From positions 1-24,406 of IMG/VR virus record IMGVR_UViG_3300036851_000059: DNA of 24,406 bases. One strand, written 5' to 3'. The DNA is from a virus. Within the stretch, counting starts at the first letter, position 1. Each line of letters begins with the position of its first letter. A program made the position numbers and the translations under genes. Of the stretch, positions 1,030 to 24,207 are shown one piece after another. The notes below the pieces were generated by a model that saw only the letters and a list, made by a program, of their open reading frames with translations, did not search any database and was not told where the DNA came from.

Positions 1030-4000
1030 TTACTTCCGTGGCGCGCCCGTCATAACCGCGCCGGGATTCTGTGTCTTCCCCTCTGCGAGCGCCGCGATCC
1101 CCTCGATCGTGCGCTTGACCTGTCCGGCCGGATAGTGGAGCAGCACGCCGCCGACATCGTTCAGCGCGCGCCAGAACGCCGCATCTGCCTCACCCTGCCG
1201 TGCCTGTTGCCCGAGTCGTGCGAGCGATGCGAACGCGCGAGCCCCGGCCGGCCCTTCGTACCCGAATGCACCGGTCAGCGCGCCGGACACTTCGCGCAGC
1301 CCAAGCATCGTCCCCGCAACGTAACTGGCATTCTCCCAAGCGATTTTGGTCGCGATATCGTCGTCCTCATCGCTGCCAGGACGGAGCCCTTCGCGTACGA
1401 GATAACCGAGCGTCGCTGGCACGATGAACAGCATCATGTAGTCCGCGGCGAGACGTCCGACCTCGACAGGATTCCGGTAGTGCGTCCGTCGCTGCGACTC
1501 GACGGCCTGGTTATAGAGCACGTTGAAGAAGCTGTAGAAGTTCGTCCAGAGCCGCATCATCGGCCCGCCGCGCTGCACTTGCGCGAGGTCCTTGATCTGG
1601 CCGCCACCCTGTGAATCGAGGACCGCCTGGTCCGCCCGAGCAATCGCCCGCGTCTCCGTGTCACCCGCAGCCGTCGCCTTCTCGTACTCGCCGAGCCAGG
1701 TCGGGACGTCCGCGACGCGTTGCATTTGCTGGATCATCCAGAAGTACGAATCAGCGACGCCCTGCCGCGTGACGTGATCGGCCGTGATGGTTGAGAGCGC
1801 CTCGTCGATCCAGCCGGAGAGGCTCGACGTCTCCACGCCGACTCTGTTCCGGATCTCGTTGATCTCGCGATTGAACGACCGGCCACGCGCCCGCATGAAC
1901 GCCGACCGGTCCTCGATCCAGCCGACCGTCTCAGTCATGGCCTGCGGCGACCGCAGCCAGCGCACGACGCCCCGCGCGATCCAGGTCGGCCCGACGCGCA
2001 CGATCGAGTTCGTCAGCCCGAGCGGTTGCAGCGCGGCCGTCGTCAGGTTCCACCCGAGCCCGGCGACCGTCGCGCCGGCGCGGACGTGATTCAGCGCGCG
2101 CTCAAATCCGTTGACGGCTGGCACGTCACCAAATGCGATATCCCGGATCGTTCCGCGAATCTGTTTGTAGACGATATCCCCGCGCGTCTCGAGGATCGCC
2201 GTCTGCACGTCCTTGTGACCGAGGATCCGCCCGACGTCGATCAATGTTTCGTGATGGGTGAGATCGTGAATGACTTGGTCGACGTGCTCGAACATCGTGC
2301 CGAAGTCGAGCCGGACAGGCATCTTGACGCGCTGGGCCCGTTCTTTCGTGTGCCCGCGCTTTGTCGTCGCCTGCGTGTAGGCGGCATTCCGTGCGAGGTT
2401 CGCGGCTTCGAGGTCGAGCTTCGCGATGGCCCCAGCCGAGAGCCGATCGTCGTAGCGGAGCGGGAAGTAGCCGCCGCGGATGTCTCCATTCGCGGCATGG
2501 ATCGGGACCGCCTCGACCCAGGTCGGCTCAATGCCATACACGCGCTTTTGCTTGTCACCGATCGCCGGGCGGAACGATTCGAATAGATCAAAGACACCCT
2601 GCACGAACTGCAGGTCGGCCGCGCTGAGCGTGTCGAGTACGGCCTGGGCCTGCGCATCGGTCCAGCCTTCGGCGAGCCGGATCCGGTCGCGGTTGCCTTC
2701 GTTGCCCCAATTCATCGCGACCATGATCCGCTCCATCCGCGACATCGCCCGGCCGACCGCCGGCACCATGCGCCGCGTGTAGAGTGTCCGCTTCTCGCGA
2801 CCTGGAAAGGCGCGCTCGACCAGTTCTGCAAATCGCTTCGTCGCGTCCGCCATCATCTCGGACTCGCGCGCCGCAGCGTCGTTCAGGCGGAACATGATCG
2901 CTTCGACCATCGGCCCGCCGTCCTGGAAGCCGTCCATCTCCCGGAGGAGGCTAGCGAGCTTGCGATGCCCGCCGAAGAAGTCCGCCACGGTCCGCCGGCT
3001 CTCTTCGGACGGAGGACGATCGCGGCGTGGCGCTCGACGCCTGGACCGTGCATTCGCCCGGATGGACTCGGCCAGCCGCGCCGCCTCGTCGTCGAGCGTG
3101 CGCTTCGCCTGCGTCTTGAGCAGCCGATTCTTCAGCCGCGCCAAGTGGACGATCTGGTCGAGCCCGTCCGAGACGCCTTCGAGTTCGGCGACCGTGATCT
3201 GCTGGTAGTTGATGCGCCGGGCATCGTTGAGCACCTCGTCGGGCAGGTCGACCGGCAGCCCTTCGCCTTCGAGTCCGGCGACGAAGTCCCGCACATTCGC
3301 GCGCCGTTCGAGCACCGTCCGGGACACGCGCGCAAACTCGTACCGCTCGAGCACGCCCAGAATCTGATCGAGATACGGCCCGCCAGCCAACCCGATCCGC
3401 GCCTGCGTCTTCGGCTTCGCGAGGTCGCGCGCCTTGCGGACGCGGTTCTCGACGTCTTCTTTCGCGCGCTCAGATTCGCGGTAGAGCGCCAGGTTGATGA
3501 GTTCCTGCGTCTTGGCCTGCACCGCCCCGGCGAAGTCCTGCCGCGCTGACCGTTCGAGGGCCTGCTGTGCCGCGCGTCGTGAGGCCGCCCAGAATCGCGC
3601 CGGTTCGAGGTCGATGATGCGCGTTGCCTGGATCCGTGTCCGCGCCGCGTCGCGGATGGCGCTCTGCGACGGGATGCCGCGCGAGAGGCTTCGCACCTCC
3701 GCGGCACCGCCCCGCGCTCGCGCCTTCAGTTCCTGAACCTGCTGTTCTAGCCGATCAATCTCGACCTGCTTCCGTCCTTCAGCGATGGCGATCCTGAGCT
3801 TGGCTTCGGCTTCGAGCCATCGCCGCTCGTAATCGCGCTCCGCCTGTTCCTCCCGGCGCGCCTGTGCGACAAACGGCGCCGCGGTCTGCTGCAGGTCCCA
3901 GAGCGCACGCAGTTCGGCACGGACCACCCCTTCGCGGACCTCGTTCGCTGTCGATGCTTGCGCTTCAGCCGGGAGCGTCCCATCGAGCAGCATCGAGCCG

Positions 4001-7000
4001 TGCTCGACCAGCATGCGGCGATCGGTCTCCGCGTCGATAGCTTGTTCCATCGGCTGTGCCGTGCTGATGGCCGTCAGGAGTTCATCGCCGCTGCCGAAGC
4101 CGAACTGCGTCGCGAGCACGTCCGGATCGAGTCCACCTTCGCGCGAGTAGGTGAACGGCGGCAACGTCTTGAGGCGTTCGATGCCGAACCGCTCGACCAC
4201 AATCGCGCGGGACAGTCGGAGCGGTGGCGTATCGATGCCCTCGACCAGTACCGAGCCGTCCGGGTTGGTGCCGCGCCTGATGGCGGCCAGCGCGCGATAG
4301 ACCGGCGCCTGATGTGCGGCCTGCTCGACATCGGTCCGCATCTCCACGCGTCGCGCCTTCCACGCGCGCTCACGTTCGCGCTGGACCTCCGCCGCGAGCT
4401 TGCGATCGAGGTCCTCCCGTGCGGTCCGTGACGCGTCCTCGATCGCGACCCGATATAACTCGAATCGCTCCGGCGTCATGCCTGCGGCTTCCGGCGTGAG
4501 GAACATTGGATCGAAGCGGCCGGAATCTTCTGCTTGCCGGATCGCCTGCTCCCCCGCAAGCATCCGGTCGAATACGCCGCGGACCTCGGCGGTCAATGGT
4601 GCTCGGAGTGCGCGCATGTGACGGTACACGCCGAGCAGCCAGGCGCGAAACTTCGCAAAGATAGAGCGCAGTTCAAGGGATGGCGCCTTGCCCTCAAAGA
4701 GATACGCCTCGAACATCCGGGCGAATTGTTCGTGCTGCTCGGTGCCAATTTGCTGGCGAGTCTCTGCGCCGAGCGCCTCAAGGAGCGCCGCGTAGTCCGT
4801 CGCGAGCTGTGCCTGCTGCGCCGTGCGGCCCTCGATCGGGATCTGCTCGACTAGGTCGGAGAAGACCTCGAGGAAGAAATGCCCGCTTTCGTGGAGGAAG
4901 GTGGATAGATCCGCGTTCTCGAATAGTCGTATCGTGAAGTGCCGATCGGACCCGAACGTGATCGCGCCACGCCGCCGCTGAAACAGCGTGGCCTGCTTTC
5001 CGCGACGTCCTGTCTCGCCTTTAGGTGGTGTGAGCGCGAACGGCGCCTCAAACTCCGGCGTCGCGATCTCCTGCTCGCGAACCTGCTCCGCACCAGGAAG
5101 CCGCGGCTGAACCTCACCGGTTTCGAGCACATCGACGGCTTCGCCAGCGAGCGCATCTTCGAGCGCGTCGAAGAGCCCTTGCCCAAACTCCGTCACGTCG
5201 AACGAGGTGTCCCCCTCGTCGGTCTCGACCGTCTCTTGCTGCTCGTCTGTCTCGAGCGCACCGGCGACGAGTTCCGCGTCGATCGCTTCGCTCAGCGCAT
5301 CTGTAAACGCTTCGCTCGCGACAACGCCCCAGGACGGCGGCATGAGCGGTCGGCCGATGTGACGGTAGTCTCCAGCCTCGCGACGCTCCGCAACGCGCAC
5401 AGCGCCTTCGGCAAGATTATTGTGAATGGTCCCCGACTCGAGCGCCTTACGGATCGCTTGCTCGACTTGTGCCCGTGAGCCGCGGACCTGCGTCGCGAGC
5501 GACATTCCGCGCCCCTTGTTCAGTGGTGCGAATGTGAGGACGTCGTTGTAGACCGGTGCACCAGGCGCACCGCCGACAACGTTGGCTTTGCCGCCGGCCG
5601 CGTTCCCGACCTCCGCACTCTCTGCGGCGATCCAGGACCACGTCTTTTCGATGAATGGAAATTCGCGGAGTTCGTCCGCGATGCGACTGAGCTCGCGGGT
5701 TACTTCTGGCGTGAGCCGCGCTTGGTCGGCTTCTGGCGTCGCGCGTTCGAAGGCTCCTTCGCTGGCGTAGTCGATGGGGGACGGTAGCCGGCGAGGTTCA
5801 ACGACTCCGCCATCGCCTGCCCCTTCGACACCCCGCTCCGCATGAGCCGCAGCGAGTTCTCGAGCACGGTCGGAAAGGATTGACCCTGGAGCAATTCCGG
5901 ATTCTGCTGTGGCATGGCTTTGCTGCTCGGGAGTATACGCGCCTCCGCGGTCTTCGATCACGCGAAATCCGCCGGCCGCTTCGATGCCGAGCGTTTCGCC
6001 CCGTTGCGGCCGGTAGTCGACCGCCTCCGGGCCGGTGAGCACACGCCGGGTGCCTTCGCGATCAAACACGACCCGCTGCTCGCGCGCTCCAGACCCTAGC
6101 CTCTGGGCTCTGGGCTCTGCCGCCAGTTCAAGCGGCGCATTCTCCGGCGCCGCTGATGCGATGTTCGCTTCGGCCGGCCCGGTTGTTTCCACAGGTGTAG
6201 CCGCTGTCCCGCTAGCTTCAGCCTCCGTCGTGCGCTCGATCTGCAATCCGTAGCGCTCAAAAACCTGCATCGCGTCGAGCCCAGCCGCCTCCGCGAGCGT
6301 CCCGACCCCGGCTTCGACCAGCGCCGCATAGGACTCCGCTGTCTGTCGTGGCACGGCCGCCGCTTCAAGCTGTTCGGTGAGCTGCACGCGGATCTGCTCA
6401 CGAGCCGTTGGGACACGTTCCGCCGCCGCCTGCTCCTGTGCAATGGCCGCCTGCTCCTGCTGGAACGCTTGCGCCTCACGGGCGTTCATTTCGTCCGGCG
6501 CGAGGCGAAGCTCCTGCGCGAAGAACGCGTTATGCGTCGTGCCGGCCAGAGACGTCGCGTAGCGCGCGGTCGGGATCGCGAGGTCGATACCGGTCGCCTG
6601 CGCCTCTTCGAGCGCGTTGCTGTTCCCCGTGACGGCCGCCGCCATCTCCGCCGGATCGACGCCCTGCGATTGCCAATAGGTGGTCCACGTCTCGACCGGC
6701 GCGTACACATTAGGGACGCCGCCCACCTCGCCCGCCTGCTGCAGGAGGGCCTGGACCGCTTCCGGTGCCCGCTGTGTGGCTTTCGAGTTCGTGACACCCT
6801 CGCCCAAGGCTTGGAAGAACGCGACGTTCTGGGCAGCCCTGCGCGCCTGCTGGACGTCCTGTGTCAACCGGACTGATGGACCCGGCGCCGATAGCAGCGA
6901 GAAGGAGAGGAGCGCCCCGATCGCCTCGTCCTTCAGGTCGTTCGCGACGTCTGAGGGGGACCGAAGTGGAATGCTCGACCCGTCCGCGACTTTTGCGAGC

Positions 7001-8112
7001 TCGCCCGACAGAATCGTCACGGACCGCTGCGCGACCTCGACGGCCGTTTCGGCGGTCAGTGTGCCCGCATAGCTCTTGACCGCCTGAAACAGTGCGCCGC
7101 GGATCGAGGGGTTCAGAAGCGCCTGTCGCACAGCCCCCCGGGTAAGAGGCTTCGTGAGCTTGTCGAGCCCTGGGATGGACCGTGCCAGCGCGCCGAGCCC
7201 GATCACCTCCAGCCCACCGTTGAGCGCCCCGGTGGCGAGCGCCGCCGCCCGGGCGACGTCCGGATCGAGCGGCTGGCCGAGTTCGTCCTTCAGCTTCGAA
7301 TACTCATCGAACGCCAGCCCGCTTTCGAGCTGGAAGCCAAACGCCGCACCGCCCGTAATCACGCCCGCCGTCATGCCGCCCGCGAATGCCGCCGGGACGG
7401 TGAGAATCTCTTCGGGCGTGGCAATCTGCGGCCCGACCTGTCCGAGGAGTGCCGCACCGGTCCCAGCTGTCACACCGGCCGGTATGCCGTAGCGCGCCCC
7501 GGCAATCGCTGCGCCGAACGTGATCGGGAGCTGTCCGGCTGCGCCCGTGACGGCCTTGCGGAACCAGGATTCACCAGCCCCGAGCGCGCCGCCCTGTTCC
7601 ATCTGCTGCCGCAACTGCTCGAGCCGCTGCCGTTCGTCTGCTGTCAAATCGCGGAAGATCGAGGCATTCGACAACTGCCCGAACTGGACCTGTGCGATCC
7701 CGCGGTCCCACGCCCGCCGCGGTGCGGTCATCAGCCACTCGAGCGCCCCGAGCGGTTCCAGGTCATCGTGCGCGACCGCCGCGTTCGACTCGCCCTCCAG
7801 CCAGAACGCGAGATGCGGGGATTGCTGTTGAATCTGATCGACGGGATGCTCGACTGCTGCGCGCTGGCGATAGACGTCGAGGTTGCGTCCAATCTCTGTC
7901 GGAGGCACACCGAAGCGCAGCGAAAGCCGGCGCGCCTCTGCGGCCTGCTCTGGGCTCTCGGTGCTGGTCTGTGTCAGGGTCCGGCGCATCGCGAGCGTGC
8001 TCGCCTGATCCATCCGGTCGAGTGCTGCGTCGTAGGCATCACGAGCAGGAGGCGTCGCGACGGTGGTTGGTTCCGTCTGGTCGAGCGCCTCGTCAAAGGG
8101 ATTCAGCGCCAT
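1030..8112 (-). CDS. Giant polyvalent internal virion/ejection protein with HExxH metallopeptidase motif (2360 aa)
   Basis: This last and largest of three core-type genes starts on the upstream stop (TAATG). Residues ~61-83 contain RLSLRFGVPP with a following NLDVYR, a pattern seen near the start of many phage internal proteins. Residues ~184-270 are Gly/Ala-rich and hydrophobic and may insert into a membrane. A low-complexity linker lies at about 620-680. HESGH at 1074-1078 fits the zincin HExxH motif, and HEQFARMFEAYL (from 1127) could supply the third, Glu ligand. Long charged helices follow (~1420-1750). The C-terminal third contains GGYFPLRYDDR, LDSQGGGQIKDL and RLWTNFYSFFN (~2185), then a hydrophobic stretch (~2222-2246), resembling the large polyvalent protein-associated domains (LPD38-like). 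The likely role is as a structural core protein ejected into the host, with protease activity inferred. No lytic transglycosylase motif was recognised. Confidence 0.85.
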   Translation of the reverse strand: MALNPFDEALDQTEPTTVATPPARDAYDAALDRMDQASTLAMRRTLTQTSTESPEQAAEARRLSLRFGVPPTEIGRNLDVYRQRAAVEHPVDQIQQQSPHLAFWLEGESNAAVAHDDLEPLGALEWLMTAPRRAWDRGIAQVQFGQLSNASIFRDLTADERQRLEQLRQQMEQGGALGAGESWFRKAVTGAAGQLPITFGAAIAGARYGIPAGVTAGTGAALLGQVGPQIATPEEILTVPAAFAGGMTAGVITGGAAFGFQLESGLAFDEYSKLKDELGQPLDPDVARAAALATGALNGGLEVIGLGALARSIPGLDKLTKPLTRGAVRQALLNPSIRGALFQAVKSYAGTLTAETAVEVAQRSVTILSGELAKVADGSSIPLRSPSDVANDLKDEAIGALLSFSLLSAPGPSVRLTQDVQQARRAAQNVAFFQALGEGVTNSKATQRAPEAVQALLQQAGEVGGVPNVYAPVETWTTYWQSQGVDPAEMAAAVTGNSNALEEAQATGIDLAIPTARYATSLAGTTHNAFFAQELRLAPDEMNAREAQAFQQEQAAIAQEQAAAERVPTAREQIRVQLTEQLEAAAVPRQTAESYAALVEAGVGTLAEAAGLDAMQVFERYGLQIERTTEAEASGTAATPVETTGPAEANIASAAPENAPLELAAEPRAQRLGSGAREQRVVFDREGTRRVLTGPEAVDYRPQRGETLGIEAAGGFRVIEDRGGAYTPEQQSHATAESGIAPGSILSDRARELAAAHAERGVEGAGDGGVVEPRRLPSPIDYASEGAFERATPEADQARLTPEVTRELSRIADELREFPFIEKTWSWIAAESAEVGNAAGGKANVVGGAPGAPVYNDVLTFAPLNKGRGMSLATQVRGSRAQVEQAIRKALESGTIHNNLAEGAVRVAERREAGDYRHIGRPLMPPSWGVVASEAFTDALSEAIDAELVAGALETDEQQETVETDEGDTSFDVTEFGQGLFDALEDALAGEAVDVLETGEVQPRLPGAEQVREQEIATPEFEAPFALTPPKGETGRRGKQATLFQRRRGAITFGSDRHFTIRLFENADLSTFLHESGHFFLEVFSDLVEQIPIEGRTAQQAQLATDYAALLEALGAETRQQIGTEQHEQFARMFEAYLFEGKAPSLELRSIFAKFRAWLLGVYRHMRALRAPLTAEVRGVFDRMLAGEQAIRQAEDSGRFDPMFLTPEAAGMTPERFELYRVAIEDASRTAREDLDRKLAAEVQRERERAWKARRVEMRTDVEQAAHQAPVYRALAAIRRGTNPDGSVLVEGIDTPPLRLSRAIVVERFGIERLKTLPPFTYSREGGLDPDVLATQFGFGSGDELLTAISTAQPMEQAIDAETDRRMLVEHGSMLLDGTLPAEAQASTANEVREGVVRAELRALWDLQQTAAPFVAQARREEQAERDYERRWLEAEAKLRIAIAEGRKQVEIDRLEQQVQELKARARGGAAEVRSLSRGIPSQSAIRDAARTRIQATRIIDLEPARFWAASRRAAQQALERSARQDFAGAVQAKTQELINLALYRESERAKEDVENRVRKARDLAKPKTQARIGLAGGPYLDQILGVLERYEFARVSRTVLERRANVRDFVAGLEGEGLPVDLPDEVLNDARRINYQQITVAELEGVSDGLDQIVHLARLKNRLLKTQAKRTLDDEAARLAESIRANARSRRRAPRRDRPPSEESRRTVADFFGGHRKLASLLREMDGFQDGGPMVEAIMFRLNDAAARESEMMADATKRFAELVERAFPGREKRTLYTRRMVPAVGRAMSRMERIMVAMNWGNEGNRDRIRLAEGWTDAQAQAVLDTLSAADLQFVQGVFDLFESFRPAIGDKQKRVYGIEPTWVEAVPIHAANGDIRGGYFPLRYDDRLSAGAIAKLDLEAANLARNAAYTQATTKRGHTKERAQRVKMPVRLDFGTMFEHVDQVIHDLTHHETLIDVGRILGHKDVQTAILETRGDIVYKQIRGTIRDIAFGDVPAVNGFERALNHVRAGATVAGLGWNLTTAALQPLGLTNSIVRVGPTWIARGVVRWLRSPQAMTETVGWIEDRSAFMRARGRSFNREINEIRNRVGVETSSLSGWIDEALSTITADHVTRQGVADSYFWMIQQMQRVADVPTWLGEYEKATAAGDTETRAIARADQAVLDSQGGGQIKDLAQVQRGGPMMRLWTNFYSFFNVLYNQAVESQRRTHYRNPVEVGRLAADYMMLFIVPATLGYLVREGLRPGSDEDDDIATKIAWENASYVAGTMLGLREVSGALTGAFGYEGPAGARAFASLARLGQQARQGEADAAFWRALNDVGGVLLHYPAGQVKRTIEGIAALAEGKTQNPGAVMTGAPRK
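6101..6119. repeat. Short heptanucleotide tandem repeat inside linker
   Basis: CTCTGGG is repeated 2.7 times (6101-6107, 6108-6114, then CTCTG). It lies in frame within the Ala/Glu/Pro-rich linker of the 2360-aa protein, encoding part of AEPRAQRLGSG. Slippage would change linker length only in multiples of three repeat units without breaking the frame. It may simply be low-complexity coding sequence. Confidence 0.5.
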
Positions 8113-16584: not shown

Positions 16585-17277
16585 TTAGGCGGAAATCGTC
16601 GTACCGCTCATTGCGACCGTTGCTTCATGCGTCGATGGGATCGCCGCCGTGGTTTCGAGCGTCATCGCGGTATCAAGGCTGCCTTCGATCCAGCACGGGA
16701 GCGTGATCACCTTGCTGTCGCCGCTGAAGTCGCCTGAGGTCCCACCGCTCACGTCGATCCGCGGCAATGAGAGTTTGGCTCGCCATTTGATGGTGCCCGC
16801 CCCGGACGCACCATCGCGCAGGACGAAATTCACAATCGCGAGATCCGAGAGCGCCGACGACGTCGCGAGCGTGACCGTGATCGACGTGCAGACATTCTTC
16901 AGCGTCCCTCCGGCGGATCCTTGCGTGCAGGAGGGTTGCTCGCTATTCCCCGCATCATCAGAGACCGCCCACGGCGATCCGTGTGGCCGCGTGGAGACCC
17001 GGAGAAACCCGCGCTGGGTCACCGATCCCGGCTGTCGATCGCCAGGCGTGTAGGTCGGATCGGATGAATTGACCGAGAACGGCGCCAGCACGAAGGCCCG
17101 GATATCCACCGTCAGTGCATGGATTAACGTCGTCAGCGCATGAATCAGGGCCGAGGTATCTCGGATCTGCTCCGTCGTCCCCTTCACCGACTTCACGAGC
17201 ACTCGGATCGCCCCACGGACGGCGCTATCTCCGAGCCGTCCTTGTGCCTCGCGTCGATGCGCGTCACGATCAGCCAT
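16585..17277 (-). CDS. Beta-rich phage structural-type protein with N-terminal helical stem (230 aa)
   Basis: ATG 17277 overlaps the upstream stop as TAATG; a longer reading from 17358 would run into the neighbour and is rejected. Residues ~1-60 are helical (MADRDAHRREAQGRLGD, then a near-duplicated LIHALT-LIHALT), suggesting a short oligomerisation stem. Residues ~70-230 are beta-rich, with three cysteines (PSCTQG, KNVCTS, LPCWIE). The block LSDLAIVNFVLRDGASGAG with IKWRAKLSLP and GSLDTAMTLE is a beta-sandwich pattern often found in predicted phage structural proteins. Unlike the three genes upstream of it, it has no signal peptide. The function is unknown; a fibre- or decoration-type virion protein is the best guess from composition and position beside the tail adaptor. 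Confidence 0.65.
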   Translation of the reverse strand: MADRDAHRREAQGRLGDSAVRGAIRVLVKSVKGTTEQIRDTSALIHALTTLIHALTVDIRAFVLAPFSVNSSDPTYTPGDRQPGSVTQRGFLRVSTRPHGSPWAVSDDAGNSEQPSCTQGSAGGTLKNVCTSITVTLATSSALSDLAIVNFVLRDGASGAGTIKWRAKLSLPRIDVSGGTSGDFSGDSKVITLPCWIEGSLDTAMTLETTAAIPSTHEATVAMSGTTISA

Positions 17278-17984
17278 TAATTCACGCCAGCTCCGAGCGT
17301 GAGGATGCGGCTCGATGTACCGCTCCCGCCACCAGCGGAGACGTCCCCACCCTCCCAATTGTCGAACCGCTCCCCACCAGTGGACGATGTGAGGAACCCT
17401 ACCCGCGCGTCCGTCAGCGTCGTGTCTGTCGCCCCAAGGCCGCTAATTGGCGTGCTATTGACCAACCCAACCAGCACCCCGCTGCCTTGGTTCTCAAATC
17501 GCAAGACGTCGCCGTTGGCCAGCGATACGCCCGTGACGGAATCCAACGACGTGCCAGAGCCGTTCACATGCTCGAAAATCTCGATCGTGTAGCTGCCACC
17601 AACCTCCTCGAAGTTCAGCTGGTAGTAATCACGATTGGCGTCTGTGTCTGTGCTGACATTAATGATGACCGCGAACTCGGCGCCGCCGGCCGTCGTGGAA
17701 TAGACGATCTGGGAGTACACCGCCGAACTGGCGTAGGTGACGTTATAGCGATACGGCGAGTCGAACGTGCTTCCGCCTGCCAGTTGATTGCTGCTGACAT
17801 TGGCAACCTGTCCGCCGGTACGCAGCGCGATCCAATCTCCGCCACTCGTCGCGCCCAATTCCCCATCCGCGTAAGTGAACGGATCGGTGTCGGTGACCGC
17901 GTGCAGCGTGATCGTCGCGAGCGCGAGCGCCGCCGCGAAGACACAGAGCCGATTACGGAATGTCGAAGACCAGCACCCAATCAT
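17277..17984 (-). CDS. Exported concanavalin/LamG-like protein (235 aa)
   Basis: ATG 17984 is chosen because an AGAGGGGG Shine-Dalgarno site lies just upstream; a TTG one codon earlier is less likely. The first ~29 residues look like a Sec signal peptide: a basic n-region (FRNR), a hydrophobic core (LCVFAAALALATITL) and a possible cut after LHA. The mature part has no cysteine and alternates short beta strands: DPFTYADGELG, DYYQLNFEE, YTIEIFEHVNG, VLRFENQGSG and ERFDNWEGG. This is the look of a LamG/concanavalin-type jelly roll, often carbohydrate-binding. The C-terminus is a Gly/Ser-rich tail. It overlaps the glycoside hydrolase gene by 32 bases, so the two are probably co-translated and may act together on a glycan. 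Binding is inferred; no ligand residues were identified. Confidence 0.7.
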   Translation of the reverse strand: MIGCWSSTFRNRLCVFAAALALATITLHAVTDTDPFTYADGELGATSGGDWIALRTGGQVANVSSNQLAGGSTFDSPYRYNVTYASSAVYSQIVYSTTAGGAEFAVIINVSTDTDANRDYYQLNFEEVGGSYTIEIFEHVNGSGTSLDSVTGVSLANGDVLRFENQGSGVLVGLVNSTPISGLGATDTTLTDARVGFLTSSTGGERFDNWEGGDVSAGGGSGTSSRILTLGAGVN

Positions 17985-19356
17985 CAAAGGCCCCCTCTGC
18001 GTTGTTGCCAGGCACGGTAAACGCCTGTGTGCCGGAGTTGGAAATGCCGGTGCCGATGGCCGTATACGTTTCGTCAGTCGGATCGAACCAGCGTGCGCGG
18101 AACGCCGCGCTCATCACGTTGCGGTTGATCGTGACGGAGCCGTCGTCCGCGGTCGGGATGTAGCACCACGCGAGCGTGCCGGCGTCGTCGGAGACGCAGG
18201 CGACATAGTCGGCAGCCGTGAGCGTCCCGCCGCCAGCGTTGACCATCGACGGCCGAGGTTCTAAGGTGTGCCACGGATAGGACGTCACGAACCGATTGCG
18301 ACGGGCCATGTCCATGGCCATCGTCGAGTGCATGTCGTTCTGCCAACCCGAGTTGAACAAGAACTGCGTGGCGTGCCCCATCGAGAAGTCGCCGCCGATG
18401 ACCGACAACCAGCCCCACCAGCCGTAGCGGCGGTAGGGCTCCCCGCTCTGGCCTTCGAAGGGTGTCTCCTGCACGAACGCTGGTAGCGTTGGCGAGTAGG
18501 CCCAGGCCCGTGCACCCTGATTATTGATATCGGTCGCGTTGGAGTAGGTGCCGTTCAGGGTGATGTAGCCGCCGAACACGGGCTGGTCGGTCGTGATCGA
18601 CCCGCGTCGCCATTCAGCCGAGACGAGTGTCTGAGGTTGCGGGAGGACTGAGAATAGCCCGTCGAGCAGGGCCTGTTCGGCATCCTCCTGTTCAGCCGTG
18701 AATTGCTCACTGCCGCCACCGCGGTCGCCACCAATCATCCAGATCAGGTTTTTCTGGTTCCGATAGCGGTTCGCGACCCACGAGCCGTACGTCTCCATCT
18801 TGGTCGTCCCGTTGGCGACCATCTCGTCCATCCAGCCTTCGATTGGCGTGGTGGGGAATCCGACGTAGGCCGGGAAGAAAAACACGGCGAGGCCGAACCG
18901 CTCACAGTCAGCGAAGAAGCGATCGACGAACGCCCAGTACGCTTCATTCGGTGTCGTGAAATCGGGCGCGTCGGTGTTGATATTGGCGTAGGAGAGCGAC
19001 CCATTCCACGCCGATCCGTCGAGTTCGTCCTCGAACGGTAGGTTGTTCTCGCCATCGCGCGGGACGTTGACGCTCGTCGCGTAACGGCCGGGGATCCACA
19101 CTTCGACCGCGTTGAACGCCTTCGACACCGTATCGCCGAGGAACCACGCCGTGTCAGCCCGCGACAAGCCAATGATCGACCACGCGTTGTGCCCGAGGAC
19201 GGTGAATGGCGTGCCGTTCGCTTCGACGAGATACCGATTCGAGGCATGCGCGCTCAGCGGAAACGCCACGGGCGGACGCACGAAGCGGACGCGATCCTGG
19301 GCGATTGCGGTCAGTGACAGAACGCAGAGGAGAACGACAGACCAGAATCGGCGCAT
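17953..19356 (-). CDS. Exported apiosidase-like glycoside hydrolase, DUF4038/GH140-like (467 aa)
   Basis: ATG 19356 starts a clear signal peptide (MRRFWSVVLLCVLSLTAIAQ, cut probably after AIA). The frame extends to 19551, but that part is Arg-rich and overlaps the upstream gene. The catalytic domain shows the DUF4038 signature: N-R-Y-L-V-E-A-N-G-T-P-F with VLGHNAWS, a FNAVEVW strand, YWAFVDRFFADCERFGLAV, RYRNQKNLIWMIGGD (D211) and LPAFVQETPFEGQ (E297, E301). D211 and one of the two Glu residues are candidate catalytic acids. The last ~80 residues (LAWCYIP, ARWFDPTDETYTAIG, DDWVLVFDI) match the collagen-binding-type beta domain that often follows DUF4038. GH140 members cleave apiose from plant pectin; the substrate here is unknown. 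No good Shine-Dalgarno site is seen, so translation may depend on the upstream gene. Confidence 0.82.
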   Translation of the reverse strand: MRRFWSVVLLCVLSLTAIAQDRVRFVRPPVAFPLSAHASNRYLVEANGTPFTVLGHNAWSIIGLSRADTAWFLGDTVSKAFNAVEVWIPGRYATSVNVPRDGENNLPFEDELDGSAWNGSLSYANINTDAPDFTTPNEAYWAFVDRFFADCERFGLAVFFFPAYVGFPTTPIEGWMDEMVANGTTKMETYGSWVANRYRNQKNLIWMIGGDRGGGSEQFTAEQEDAEQALLDGLFSVLPQPQTLVSAEWRRGSITTDQPVFGGYITLNGTYSNATDINNQGARAWAYSPTLPAFVQETPFEGQSGEPYRRYGWWGWLSVIGGDFSMGHATQFLFNSGWQNDMHSTMAMDMARRNRFVTSYPWHTLEPRPSMVNAGGGTLTAADYVACVSDDAGTLAWCYIPTADDGSVTINRNVMSAAFRARWFDPTDETYTAIGTGISNSGTQAFTVPGNNAEGAFDDWVLVFDIP

Positions 19357-19361
19357 GGAGG

Positions 19362-21230
19362 TTATCGCTGGACGTAAGTGAGGAGGCCATCGACCTGCAC
19401 GGCCGCAGAGAGTTCGATGCACATCGCCTCGCCGGCCGCGCCCTTGAATTGTGTCGCCCCGCCATTGGATCGCACGATGCCACGCATGCCAGCACCAGCC
19501 GCGGCGGAGAGGTTGTAGACGCCGGTCTTGTTTGTCTCGCCGGTCGCACATGCGGTACCAGTACCGCTCACGAATTGAATAGAGACGTCCGCGACTGACG
19601 TGACATCGAAGCCGCAGACGTAGACGATCGTCGAGCCTGAGATCGCGACGAGTTCCACGTTGCCAGACGTCGCCGTGGTGATTGGGATGCCGATCACCTG
19701 CGAGTCGTCCGCGCAGGCGTTCTTGTCAGCGGAGAGCGCGACGCTGATCGAATTCGCCGCGGTCTGCTGGCCTTCGTTCGGCAGAGCGGTGACAACGCTG
19801 TTGGCATTGAGCCGCCCGTTCGTGTCGCACCAGAATGCGATGTTGCGACCGTCCGCACCAACGGCCGTCGGCGTCGCGGTCGAGGCGTTACAGAAGACGC
19901 CCGGGCCGGTCGTTTGCGTCGTGGTGTTCGTGGTCGCGTCACTGCCAACTGTCAACGCTGTTCCAGCGGCATCGACGGGAAGCGTCTTGACCGCGTTCGC
20001 TGTCGCGTCGGTCACCTCATCGCCGGCTGAGTCCCGTAGCCGGACCGCGCCGATGGTGTTCGTGCCTGCTGGAATGGCTGACGCAAGGTCGACGTTGCCG
20101 ATGTTGTTGTCGCCGGCCGCGATCGAGGTGACCTGTGTCGCAAAGGTCCCGGCGTTGGTAACCGCGTGGCTATTAACCGTCAACGCGTCGACGTGCTTGA
20201 CGTAGAGCTCGCCGTTGTTCGTGCCCCGCGCCGAAACGTTGTCACCATCGGCCGACGTCACACCGGCCAGCGTGTCTGCCCTCACCAGATTCAGCGCGTT
20301 CCCAACAGGATTCGCGGCGGCCGCGGCATCCTCGGTGTATTGCGTGCCCCCACCCACCGACAACTCCGCGCCAGCGGCATCGCGCAGGTTGACGTGAATC
20401 GCGCGCTGCGGCGTAAGACTCACCGCGCAGGTGTCACCGTCCGTACAGGCCGTAACGGTCGATTGGTAGAATCCGCCCACGGGTGTGAAGCTGGTGGTAC
20501 CGGCCGTGAAATCCGCGTCATCAGCGAGCGACGTGCCGCCTGAGCCGCCGCATCCGCTATCACAGATCACATTGAGCGCCCCGGCACCATCGGTCACCGT
20601 GACCGCATTGGTAATCGCGGTGACCGCCGTCAACGTCCCGCTGTCAATGATCGCGTTGAGCGCCCCGGCGCCGTCTGTGACCGTCACGGTCCCATCCACC
20701 GTGAGCGGCCCGGTGCCGTCTCCCACGAGACAGGGCGCCGCCACAGCACTATCCGAGCACCGCACAAAATGCGGATCGTTCGCGGGTTGTGCGCCGGCCG
20801 TGATACCGCCGACCGAGACGGACCCTGTCGCTGCGACCTCAACTGGCGCCGGCTGGAGCGGCCCGCGTGAGCACGTGATTGCTACTGACGCATCGCTCGC
20901 CGTGGAGCGAATCATCGAGAATTGCGAGAGATTGTTTGCCCCGCGAATGTTGAAGGTCGTCCCCGGCGGAACCACATGATCGGACGCCGTTGCCGCGACG
21001 CCATCAAAACGGAAGGCAATGCCGTTGGTATTGACGCTGATCGTGCAGGATGTCGCCGCCGGTTGTCCGGTTGGCGTGATCGCTGACGATGGGAACGATT
21101 GCGCCGTCGTTGAAACGGTGACGACCGAATGTGTATAGCCTTGCCCGGTGGTGTTCTGTGCCCGTGCGAGCGGTGCGGAGACGACCAGCGCCGCGACCAG
21201 CCCGATCCAGACGAATGTTCGTCTCCGCAT
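19362..21230 (-). CDS. Exported cysteine-rich phage structural-type protein (622 aa)
   Basis: A strong AAGGAG site lies 7 bases before ATG 21230. Residues 1-24 form a textbook Sec signal peptide (MRRRTFVWIGLVAALVVSAP, then LARA, cut before Q25). The mature protein is Ala/Thr/Gly/Val-rich and low in charge. It has VTDGAGALN repeated twice (about residues 180 and 212), then QYTEDAAAAANPVGNAL with DGDNVSARGTNNGELYV (about 297-345). The last block is a pattern I associate with repetitive head- or tail-fibre proteins of environmental phages. The C-terminal ~110 residues (VELVAISGSTIVYVCGFD, GETNKTGVYNLSAAAGAG) also match a recurrent phage beta domain. There are 14 cysteines, many in close pairs, suggesting disulfides formed after export. 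The exact function is not recognised; it could be a virion fibre or a protein secreted from the infected cell. Confidence 0.7.
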   Translation of the reverse strand: MRRRTFVWIGLVAALVVSAPLARAQNTTGQGYTHSVVTVSTTAQSFPSSAITPTGQPAATSCTISVNTNGIAFRFDGVAATASDHVVPPGTTFNIRGANNLSQFSMIRSTASDASVAITCSRGPLQPAPVEVAATGSVSVGGITAGAQPANDPHFVRCSDSAVAAPCLVGDGTGPLTVDGTVTVTDGAGALNAIIDSGTLTAVTAITNAVTVTDGAGALNVICDSGCGGSGGTSLADDADFTAGTTSFTPVGGFYQSTVTACTDGDTCAVSLTPQRAIHVNLRDAAGAELSVGGGTQYTEDAAAAANPVGNALNLVRADTLAGVTSADGDNVSARGTNNGELYVKHVDALTVNSHAVTNAGTFATQVTSIAAGDNNIGNVDLASAIPAGTNTIGAVRLRDSAGDEVTDATANAVKTLPVDAAGTALTVGSDATTNTTTQTTGPGVFCNASTATPTAVGADGRNIAFWCDTNGRLNANSVVTALPNEGQQTAANSISVALSADKNACADDSQVIGIPITTATSGNVELVAISGSTIVYVCGFDVTSVADVSIQFVSGTGTACATGETNKTGVYNLSAAAGAGMRGIVRSNGGATQFKGAAGEAMCIELSAAVQVDGLLTYVQR

Positions 21231-21876: not shown

Positions 21877-22317
21877 CTATGTCGCGTAGCCCTTCGCGTA
21901 CGCGGTCCACTCCTCGAAGAACGACCGCGGCATCAGACCGGCCGTGACCGTGATCGTCGGCGTGGTGCCGCCCACGTCGTAATTGAGGCCGATATAGCGC
22001 TGCACCGGCGTGCCGATCGGTACTTCGATGAAGTGCCGTGAGCCCGCCGTCAGGCTCGCCGCGAGGATGACGCGACGGCTGAGGACGGTTGGTGTCGACA
22101 GGTCCGCGCTCGCGCTCGAGATGACCTCGAATGCGTAGGTTTCATCTCCTGTCGTGCTGTCGGCGGCGACGTCGACGGTGATGCCGAACCCAACCGGCTC
22201 GCCAGTGCCGATCTTGTTCTTCACCGTCGGGTTGCCGAGATCGATCGTGTTGGTGCTGACTGCGTCGGCCGCGATCGCCTGCGCGTCGGACACCAGCAAC
22301 AAAGCATCCATGAACAT
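21877..22317 (-). CDS. Bbp16-type capsid cement protein (146 aa)
   Basis: The opening MFMDALLLVSDAQAIAADAV followed by STNTIDLGNP, IGTGEPVGFGITVDVAA, RHFIEVPIGTPVQRYIGLNY and DVGGTTPTITVTAGL closely matches the capsid cement family named after Bbp16 of Bordetella phage BPP-1. Those proteins are small beta folds that sit at capsomer junctions on the outside of the shell and stabilise the expanded head. The length is typical. An AAGGAG site lies 6 bases before ATG 22317; a second ATG two codons on is less well spaced. The gene follows the major capsid gene by 39 bases, as expected, and is followed by a terminator-like hairpin. There is no cysteine. Confidence 0.88.
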   Translation of the reverse strand: MFMDALLLVSDAQAIAADAVSTNTIDLGNPTVKNKIGTGEPVGFGITVDVAADSTTGDETYAFEVISSASADLSTPTVLSRRVILAASLTAGSRHFIEVPIGTPVQRYIGLNYDVGGTTPTITVTAGLMPRSFFEEWTAYAKGYAT

Positions 22318-22356: not shown

Positions 22357-23493
22357 CTAGACGACGCGCGCCTCTGTGTTGAGAATCGCGTCCACCCGCC
22401 GGATCGGCACATCGCCGAACATGAGGACGCGCTTCCCTGCGAAGTTGTCGTAGGTGAGCCCGCCGCCGGCCGCGACGTCGGTGCGTGCGATCTTGCGGAG
22501 AATGCGTCGCGCCCGACGGTTCATGTAGAAGACGCGCGTCCCGAGATCGTTCGGGATCAGTTCGTCCGCCTGCTCCATGAAATCCACGAGGTCGGGAGGG
22601 GTCGCGCCGAGCAGATCGCTGGCATCGATGTTCGCGATCCGGATGACGTAGCGCCAGTCCTTGACCACGAGTCCCGTCTGCCAGACGTACCGCTCCTGAA
22701 GCGCGCGCATGCGGTTACCGGCGATCCCGGCAGTGACCTCGACGGTCGTCTCGCCGAAATCCTCATGCGTGAGCCCGGCCTTGCTGCCCTTCGGGAAGAT
22801 GCCGTGTACGGTCTCTTCCCCCCAAGCCACCAGCCAGATGCTCGTGTTGTCGCTGCCCGTGCCGCCGCCGTCAACGATGTTGCTGCCGTTGCCGGCCGAG
22901 AGCAGTGAGTAGCGCGGGGCCAACCCGGTGAACTCTTCCGGCGCGAGGCCTGAGTTGCCATAGATCAGCGTTTGCGCGACCTCCTGGTTCATCGCCTCCA
23001 GGAAGGCTTTCGACTCGGAGAGCCGGAACGAATTGACGTTGCCGTTGAGTATCGCCAGCGCCTTGTCGACCTCCGACCAGGCTTCGAGCATGCCGGCCTG
23101 CTCGTCGATCTGCGCGGTCTGCGACTTACTTGGCGGTACGCCCTGGTTGAGCATGCGCCAGTAGACGGTGGGCAGTCCGGTCCGGACCGTCGTGCGGTGC
23201 CCGGTCGGGAGGTTGCCTTCCTTGAATTGCGCGTCGAGCAGTATCTCGTTGGTCTGCGAGAGCAGTTCGACGATCTTCGGGACCTTACCATCCGGATCGA
23301 GGCGCTTCGCCCAATCGTTGAGGGTCAGCGCGCCCGTGGAGAGCGTTGCGCCGATGACTAGGAGCTCGATACCGTGCCCGCTCAGCCATGCGCCAATATC
23401 CGGAGCGTGGGCCAGGACTGGAGACGAGGCCGCGCTGAGCGCATCCGAGAGCGCCAACACGCACGCCGCGATGAACAGTGCCAATCGAAACAT
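22357..23493 (-). CDS. Major capsid protein (BPP-1-like family) with hydrophobic N-terminal leader (378 aa)
   Basis: From about residue 50 the protein matches the major capsid family found with Bbp16-type cement proteins. The matching blocks are ALTLNDWAKRLDPDGKVPKI, VELLSQTNEILLDAQF, EGNLPTGHRTTVRTGLPTV, LNQGVPPSKS, GMLEAWSEVDKALAILNGN, SESKAFLEAMNQEVAQTLIY and the C-terminal VFYMNRRARRILRK with FAGKRVLMFGDVPIRRVDAI. Homologues as I know them start close to the LSTGALTLNDWAK region. Here about 48 extra residues precede it. They start MFRLALFIAACVLALSDALS, which resembles a Sec signal or membrane anchor. The ATG at 23493 has a strong GGAGGAG site 7 bases upstream, and no in-frame ATG or GTG lies at the expected short start, so the leader seems genuinely translated. 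The core has no cysteine; the only one is in the leader. Confidence 0.93.
   Translation of the reverse strand: MFRLALFIAACVLALSDALSAASSPVLAHAPDIGAWLSGHGIELLVIGATLSTGALTLNDWAKRLDPDGKVPKIVELLSQTNEILLDAQFKEGNLPTGHRTTVRTGLPTVYWRMLNQGVPPSKSQTAQIDEQAGMLEAWSEVDKALAILNGNVNSFRLSESKAFLEAMNQEVAQTLIYGNSGLAPEEFTGLAPRYSLLSAGNGSNIVDGGGTGSDNTSIWLVAWGEETVHGIFPKGSKAGLTHEDFGETTVEVTAGIAGNRMRALQERYVWQTGLVVKDWRYVIRIANIDASDLLGATPPDLVDFMEQADELIPNDLGTRVFYMNRRARRILRKIARTDVAAGGGLTYDNFAGKRVLMFGDVPIRRVDAILNTEARVV
23350..23493 (-). other. Signal-peptide-like leader of the major capsid protein
   Basis: These first 48 codons encode a hydrophobic helix (residues 4-19), a small-residue stretch with possible signal peptidase cuts near LSA-AS (after residue 21), a polar linker (HAPDIGAWLSGHG) and a second short hydrophobic segment (IELLVIGA). 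No counterpart is expected in the capsid family core. It is read in frame with the capsid body without any stop. Confidence 0.6.
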
Positions 23494-23503
23494 AGCGTCA
23501 CTC

Positions 23504-23517
23504 CTCCGCGTGCGGAG
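23504..23517 (-). promoter_or_regulatory. Hairpin overlapping the capsid gene ribosome binding site
   Basis: On the transcript the scaffold stop codon is followed at once by CTCCGCACGCGGAG, whose ends pair (CTCCG with CGGAG, loop CACG). The 3' arm contains the first GGAG of the GGAGGAG site for the capsid start at 23493. Ribosomes finishing the scaffold would open the hairpin, which could couple capsid translation to scaffold translation. The stem is short, so the effect is uncertain. Confidence 0.4.
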
Positions 23518-24207
23518 CTAACCGGCTTTCGCCGCCTCTTCCTGGACCTTCTTCGACGAGGGATGATCGTAGAAGCCGTCCGCAGTCGAGCCGCTCACGC
23601 GTGGCGCTTGTCGGCCACGCACCGGTGTGTCCTCCGCCGCCAGTTTGCCGACCGTCGCGAGAAACGCGACGATCGAAAGTTCACTCCCGAACCCTGTCCG
23701 TTTCAGGTTCCCCATGAACCGCTCGCGGAGCCGATGTCCTTCCGGAAAGACCTTGTCGATCGCGAGGTTCGCGAGTCGTTGTGTCTCCGTCAGATGATCG
23801 CCACCGAAATCGGCGTCGCCCTTCGTCTCCGTCTCGAACGTGGCAATCTGGCCCTGCCGAAGCTCGTCATCGAACTTCAGCATGTCGGTCAGTTCCGCGT
23901 TCGCCTCGTCGTTGGTCCAGTCGTTCGCGCGCGCGATCGACTCGACGCGTTCGAGGAGTTTTTGAGGAACCGATGCTTTGCGGTCGTCCTGGACAGTGAA
24001 CGCGTACTTCTCAGGAGCCTTCGGCTGAGGCTTGACCTCGCCGTCCTTGCCCTTGGGTTCCGCTGCTGCCGCTGCCGCCGCTGCCGCTTGCTCTTCCGCC
24101 GTGCCCTGTCCGCCGGTTTTGGTCTCACCGGGTTTCGGAGCCTCGCCCGCCTTCACTGCGCCTGACGCGTCGGGTTGCACCTGTGCGCCGGCTGCTTCAT
24201 TCGCCAT
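23518..24207 (-). CDS. Capsid scaffolding protein (229 aa)
   Basis: This is a typical scaffold layout. Residues 1-65 are disordered and low in complexity, with a run of nine alanines (AEEQAAAAAAAAAEPKGKDG). A short PEKYAFTVQDD motif follows at about 65-75. A charged helical middle contains LLERVESIARANDWTNDEAN, FETETKGDADFGGDHLTETQ and LANLAIDKVFP. The region GFGSELSIVAFLATVGKLAAED is the short conserved block near the end of many scaffolds of this class. A basic, Lys-rich tail probably contacts the capsid protein. The protein directs procapsid assembly and is lost on maturation. ATG 24207 has a GGAGGG site six bases upstream and overlaps the preceding gene by 11 bases. It lies immediately upstream of the capsid gene. 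Confidence 0.85.
   Translation of the reverse strand: MANEAAGAQVQPDASGAVKAGEAPKPGETKTGGQGTAEEQAAAAAAAAAEPKGKDGEVKPQPKAPEKYAFTVQDDRKASVPQKLLERVESIARANDWTNDEANAELTDMLKFDDELRQGQIATFETETKGDADFGGDHLTETQRLANLAIDKVFPEGHRLRERFMGNLKRTGFGSELSIVAFLATVGKLAAEDTPVRGRQAPRVSGSTADGFYDHPSSKKVQEEAAKAG

Follow-up and report, generated by a model that had tools for sequence, protein, structure and literature searches.

The major capsid proteins (MCPs) of tailed phages are, to our knowledge, regarded as soluble and cytoplasmic. In HK97, the delta domain of gp5 is removed by the phage prohead protease. In T4, the N-terminal pro-piece of gp23 is likewise removed by the phage prohead protease, and proheads initiate on a membrane-bound portal, which gives a precedent for head assembly linked to the membrane (PMC9958956). 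In BPP-1, the MCP has both termini on the outside of the capsid, and its N-terminal peptide adds to a sheet of the cement protein (PMC3863775).

The MCP gene considered here belongs to a 24.4-kb virus record, hereafter the window (the whole stretch of DNA that was analyzed), in which one MCP gene is seen. This gene (22357..23493, minus strand) is a long form coding for 378 amino acids followed by a stop codon. Its ATG start codon (23493, minus strand) is separated by 7 nt (spacer TGACGCT) from a GGAGGAG Shine-Dalgarno sequence (23501..23507, minus strand) and is the only start with a good Shine-Dalgarno sequence. Residues 1–48 form a leader (MFRLALFIAACVLALSDALSAASSPVLAHAPDIGAWLSGHGIELLVIG; 23350..23493, minus strand), and the family body begins at residue 50 by comparison with the BPP-1 MCP (3j4u), 53 with PHROG 212, and 66 with Pfam GP7. 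Four in-frame start codons precede the body, namely ATG1, TTG4, GTG12, and TTG13; from residue 14 onward, no ATG, GTG, or TTG occurs in frame until the body. The sequence-only reading, which had described a leader of about 48 residues and the lack of a usable start at the body, is thus borne out on both points.

Upstream of the MCP, the stop codon of a Bbp18-type gene (23518..24207, minus strand; PHROG 458) ends 24 nt before the leader ATG. The gene of a Bbp16-type cement protein (21877..22317, minus strand; Pfam PF21190, E = 4.4e-19; PHROG 427) has a normal start, PHROG 427 being matched from profile position 1. The order on the minus strand, Bbp18-type gene, MCP, and Bbp16-type cement, is identical to that of BPP-1. 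Both PHROG 458 and several phage records label the Bbp18-type gene “protease”; its product in the window, charged, of low complexity, and without Pfam match, looks like a scaffolding protein. At some distance, a 2360-aa protein with an LPD22 polyvalent-protein domain (1030–8112, minus strand) is likely a large internal virion protein.

The window protein is a GP7/BPP-1-type MCP in every test but that of its start. It covers positions 1–313 of the 313 positions of Pfam PF20911 (E = 9.9e-129), also matches PHROG 212, and matches 3j4u_A with E = 1.1e-103 (phmmer). An AF2 model of moderate confidence (pLDDT 66.6) has an HK97-like fold as in BPP-1, with 3j4u as best Foldseek match, followed by 8cjz and 3j40. 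Family and fold match Bbp17 of BPP-1 (PDB 3j4u), gp7 of epsilon15 (3j40), and the MCP of Carin1 (8cjz) over the whole body. The full-length profile, the HK97-like fold, and the order of scaffold-like gene, MCP, and Bbp16 cement gene all correspond to the GP7/BPP-1 family. The start at the body (M-A-T/A-L) is what differs: the window MCP starts 48 residues upstream, with a Gly at the position of the Met. Because a body start typifies the known members and is not in the defining profile, the window MCP is considered as a variant of the family; the BPP-1 MCP begins at the body without leader, whereas that of the window bears one.

The comparison set contained 212 MCP loci from IMG/VR, GTDB genomes, and phage records, 209 of which had a callable start. 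Starts were called from the codon and the choice of Shine-Dalgarno sequence, and positions were counted from Asp60 of the window protein. Two classes emerge. The start is exactly at −12 in 135 of the 209 loci and at −15 to −7 in a few; 57 loci start at −69 to −45, and none between −16 and −44. These 57 long-form loci represent 44 distinct leaders, including that of the window, some loci being the same contig fetched twice. In short-form relatives, the Shine-Dalgarno sequence is mostly found before the −12 ATG. In 52 of the 53 long-form loci measured, the gene starts 12–37 nt past the upstream stop codon; short forms start similarly near it, usually at a few tens of nucleotides or less in both classes. 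The leader thus takes up the usual start position, and the body is displaced. Among 141 distinct short-form genes, two are open for at least 45 codons upstream of the body and none hides a leader, no ATG being present in the leader range and nothing there being signal-peptide-like.

The proposal that a small membrane-protein gene had been fused to the MCP fared less well and was abandoned. No separate small leader gene was seen, and the MCP of short loci starts just as near the upstream stop. Most gaps in short loci are too small for a separate small gene, and the 12 short loci whose gap exceeds 60 nt revealed no ORF that was both small and strongly hydrophobic.

Most of the near relatives of the window MCP (L002, L003, L136, L138, and L004–L009) carry the same kind of leader. 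Thus, they do not start at about residue 49, which would have spoken against the sequence-only reading, nor was the leader found to be the product of an indel. Long forms also occur at two divergent loci from genome assemblies (L109 and L115). In contrast, the 12 phage records that were read individually among 91 matches are all short and devoid of leader (BPP-1, Tyrion, Tr60_Ab31, BcepC6B, Jess A, Vibrio 1.185.O, UFJF_PfDIW6, vir555, ctQRb9, ctEw122, DC33, and zth2-2). The short form follows from the annotated start in 11 of the 12, and from start calling as well for BPP-1 and Tyrion; the zth2-2 record is unannotated and its MCP match merely begins at the body. One of these records, Limnohabitans phage DC33 (PQ492659.1, L216), is 39 kb long and contains a GP7-type tailed-phage capsid gene, and its taxonomy line, which says Inoviridae, looks wrong.

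At one contig represented twice (L019/L147), a leader-like frame (MRTRLFSFLTLAIALVLVPLDLYAATLTHAP...) lies just upstream of the MCP body and out of frame with it, owing either to an assembly indel or to decay of the leader. Such errors or decay do therefore occur, and the leader of the window could in principle be an artefact of assembly or annotation, either an indel or a chimera. The occurrence of 44 distinct leaders in many independent records, including the two genome assemblies, contradicts this explanation, whose probability we regard as negligible.

Leaders of the long class have a common layout, in which a basic start precedes a hydrophobic core. Most then show a site resembling that of signal peptidase I. 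A loop and a second apolar stretch follow, together with a Gly. In the window, the hydrophobic h-region (residues 4–15, LALFIAACVLAL; 23449..23484, minus strand) is preceded by one basic residue, R3, and has a Kyte-Doolittle mean of 3.03 over 12 residues; 12-residue cores range from 2.3 to 3.45 across the class. The most likely signal-peptidase-I site, predicted by motif, is ALSA|A after residue 21 (23428..23442, minus strand), and an alternative predicted site is VLA|H, after residue 28. The positive n-region, the hydrophobic h-region, and a small-x-Ala site at the right distance, as expected for Sec and signal peptidase I, are all recognizable, in the window with ALSA|A. In the class, the usual predicted site is D-[LIV]-x-A|A or a similar small-x-Ala. 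The strict motif [AVLIST]xA|[AV] is present in 26 of the 44 leaders (shuffled mean 8.9, maximum 19, 500 shuffles), whereas the loose small-x-Ala motif (33/44 against a shuffled mean of 26) is uninformative. About 10 leaders have no clear site by eye (L002, L007, L025, L027, L045, L047, and kin) and may be uncleaved anchors. A crude signal-peptide rule, used along with hydropathy, was passed by 54 of the 57 long-form loci, by 26 of 1252 upstream genes, and by no short MCP. The idea of a Sec-type or membrane-anchoring leader on an MCP whose body normally starts with M-A-(T/A)-L is thus strengthened.

After the core, the loop is variable and fairly polar. Positions −16 to −13 are hydrophobic, and positions −16 to −1 hold one charged residue across all 44 leaders. 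In the window, the second apolar stretch (residues 42–58, IELLVIGATLSTGALTL; 23320..23370, minus strand) extends into the body and is possibly either a weak second membrane segment or an N-arm strand. Over 19 residues, the hydropathy of this stretch has a median of 1.51 in the long class and 0.25 in short forms; it is 1.32 in the window and reaches at least 1.6 in 14 of the 44. In the AF2 model, residues 2–23 form a helix (mean pLDDT of about 79 for residues 1–10 and 61 for residues 11–20), and confidence is low across residues 18–52, a span including part of the second stretch. When compared with PHROG, the leader peptides gave no match below E = 0.07. Two leaders share an NPR-[IV]-QM n-region (L048 and L109) and belong to MCP bodies far apart in the tree, a likeness that hints at leader exchange.

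In the window, Gly48 (codon GGC, 23350..23352, minus strand) is aligned to the initiator Met of short-form relatives. A Gly (GGN) is found at this −12 position in 40 of the 44 leaders and, by eye, at −13 in the other four. The sequence-only reading had taken this place for an altered short start. A Gly codon is indeed present where the Met used to be, but its conservation across the 44 leaders makes it a feature of the long class and not recent damage at one locus. One locus (L154) still has a short-form ATG at −12, straight after the Gly (..ICFG-MAALGTSN), and resembles a transitional form linking the two classes.

Selection on the leader can be read in close pairs only, since the leader is near saturation in distant ones. 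The leader dN/dS is 0.14 (L035/L037), 0.20 (L027/L052), and 0.37 (L044/L156) and, with a neutral synonymous share assumed to be 0.29, the excess of synonymous changes has binomial P values of about 0.001, 0.003, and 0.07, respectively. These pairs point to purifying selection acting on the leader, which evolves faster than the body. Such data also bear on the possibility that an unusual codon at the body is the real translation start, the leader being either not made or a separate overlapping peptide. A few members have kept an ATG near the body, at −12 (L154) or at −13 or −14 (L002, L025, L027, L029, L047, and L052), as this possibility would have it. Nevertheless, the Gly codon at the short-form Met position in most leaders, the location of the Shine-Dalgarno sequence at the leader ATG, and the maintenance of the frame and of the amino-acid pattern, with synonymous change favored in close pairs, leave it a very faint chance.

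We give even chances to the view that a genuine, translated Sec-type leader tethers the MCP to the inner membrane for head assembly and is then cleaved or withdrawn. The sequences themselves give good support to the presence of the leader, to a pattern kept throughout the class, to selection in close pairs against changes of amino acid, and to its having been repeatedly gained or lost, whereas we infer membrane insertion, cleavage, stop transfer, the place of assembly, and release. The hydrophobic N-terminus of the MCP would insert into the inner membrane via Sec, and host signal peptidase I would cut the leader in most members. The loop would then sit on the periplasmic side, and the second apolar stretch, together with the adjoining basic DWAKR of the body, would stop transfer, keeping the capsid body in the cytoplasm on a weak tether. 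As this stretch is only marginally hydrophobic, it may fail to stop transfer and could be a β-strand arm instead. A leader attached to an outer-face N-terminus projects outside the shell, so that a tether to the membrane is possible on geometric grounds, which would not hold for a pro-piece facing inward. Since the N-terminus is outside in BPP-1-type shells, head assembly would take place against the inner membrane and be followed by release. Release might occur by pulling out of the weak tether. Alternatively, as the alignment leads us to guess, the protein might be cut again at the conserved Gly, which would restore the short-form N-terminus (A-T/A-L); the cement protein would then occupy the freed N-terminal site. 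The complete scheme, in which an HK97-fold MCP would be a membrane protein precursor inserted by Sec, processed by the host signal peptidase, and built into heads at the inner membrane, its leader being repeatedly switched on and off, is proposed more tentatively, at somewhat less than an even chance.

The main rival is that the leader is a cytosolic pro-piece, a signal-peptide look-alike that Sec does not use. It would slow the folding of the MCP, or shield the outer N-arm or the cement site until the shell is formed, and would then be trimmed or kept. N-terminal pro-pieces are used by HK97-fold MCPs of other phages, but the known delta domains are long and polar. Moreover, a soluble piece would have no evident reason to keep the pattern of basic start, hydrophobic core, and small-x-Ala. 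The weakness of the second apolar stretch as a membrane segment suits a cytosolic role, as does its point of attachment, which lies on the outer face at the place bound by the cement protein (PMC3863775). On balance, we consider this explanation improbable.

A leader kept on the virion would be another way to use an outside N-terminus as in BPP-1. The second apolar arm, or the whole anchor in some members, would bind lipid or the host surface from the outer face, giving a lipid or hydrophobic coat. The several leaders resembling uncleavable anchors would fit this idea. On the other hand, virions exposing hydrophobic arms by the hundreds should aggregate, the site is normally contacted by the cement protein, and no such tailed virion was found in the open-licence literature; we regard this explanation as unlikely.

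Whatever its role, the leader is inessential to this capsid type, since short-form relatives, some of them nested among long ones, manage without it. On a careful tree of 65 MCP bodies, 12 long/short changes are found, at least nine of which are forced by well-supported branches; a 181-row tree needs 16. By this tree-based estimate, the leader has been gained or lost at least nine times, and a single origin followed by simple descent is ruled out by these forced changes. For example, short L012/L140 adjoin long L006 and L004, short L159 adjoins long L153/L154, and, with weaker support, short L011 adjoins the window MCP. The long/short label requires 11 changes on the MCP-core tree (3 of 500 shuffles as low), 12 on the cement tree (11/500), and 14 on that of the upstream gene (100/500). 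Co-inheritance with the upstream gene was rejected, as the label fits the MCP-core and cement trees better.

Simple ORF calls in nine long and seven short records of 44–49 kb revealed no clear partner gene tracking the leader. A 125-aa family flagged in this gene-content comparison was too poorly conserved to be used. Downstream signal-peptide-like genes do not track the leader either (4 of 46 long loci and 10 of 127 short ones). Three further signal-peptide-like starts are located between the cement and tail genes of the window. The first one (19362–21230, minus strand) begins at the first ATG (MRRRTFVWIGLVAALVVSAPLARA|QNTT). The second one (17953–19551, minus strand) begins at an inner Met (MRRFWSVVLLCVLSLTAIAQ), in a protein with an apiosidase-like catalytic domain and a putative collagen-binding domain. 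The third one (17277–17987, minus strand) is RLCVFAAALALATITLHA.

That other window genes also have such starts, together with the Sec-like pattern of the leader itself, could suggest that the leader sends a share of the MCP across the inner membrane for a non-capsid job. The apolar stretch and the K-R pair before the body argue instead for retention. In addition, because the leader is on the only MCP gene seen and most members have no second start, export would rob the capsid pool. Partial export is in our opinion very unlikely and, like retention on the virion, less likely than the cytosolic pro-piece.

We return to the membrane-tethered MCP as our preferred reading. What is new is the leader at the start of the MCP, the GP7/BPP-1-type MCP itself being already known. 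The leader-bearing MCPs belong to a group of uncultured, tailed-phage-like viruses whose known relatives have no leader, and the open-licence papers searched yielded no account of an HK97-fold MCP with a signal peptide. If true, the conserved leader would mean either that heads assemble at the membrane or that a signal peptide has been reused as a capsid pro-piece. Repeated gains or losses also provide natural long/short pairs with otherwise similar capsids.

Several known systems resemble the long-form MCPs in part. The Sec signal peptides that bacteria process with signal peptidase I have the same basic start, hydrophobic core, and small-x-Ala site within about 20–26 residues; in contrast, the putative signal peptide of the MCP is carried by a cytoplasmic shell protein and is followed by a second apolar stretch. 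The inovirus procoat is made up of a cleavable leader, a short loop, a second apolar segment, and a basic cytoplasmic part. This likeness in layout is by analogy only, the inovirus coat being an unrelated small helical protein whereas the cytoplasmic part of the long-form MCP is a full HK97-fold capsid protein. The delta domain of HK97 gp5 and the pro-piece of T4 gp23 are also extra N-terminal pieces on an HK97-fold MCP. However, a delta domain is polar, helical, internal, and cut by a phage protease, whereas the MCP leader is hydrophobic, a separate scaffold-like gene lies upstream, and the N-terminus in the family structure is on the outer face (PMC3863775). Finally, the gp20-gp40 membrane initiator of the T4 portal shares with our proposal a head assembly linked to the inner membrane (PMC9958956); in T4, the contact with the membrane is made by the portal and not by the MCP, whereas the contact proposed here would be made by the MCP itself.
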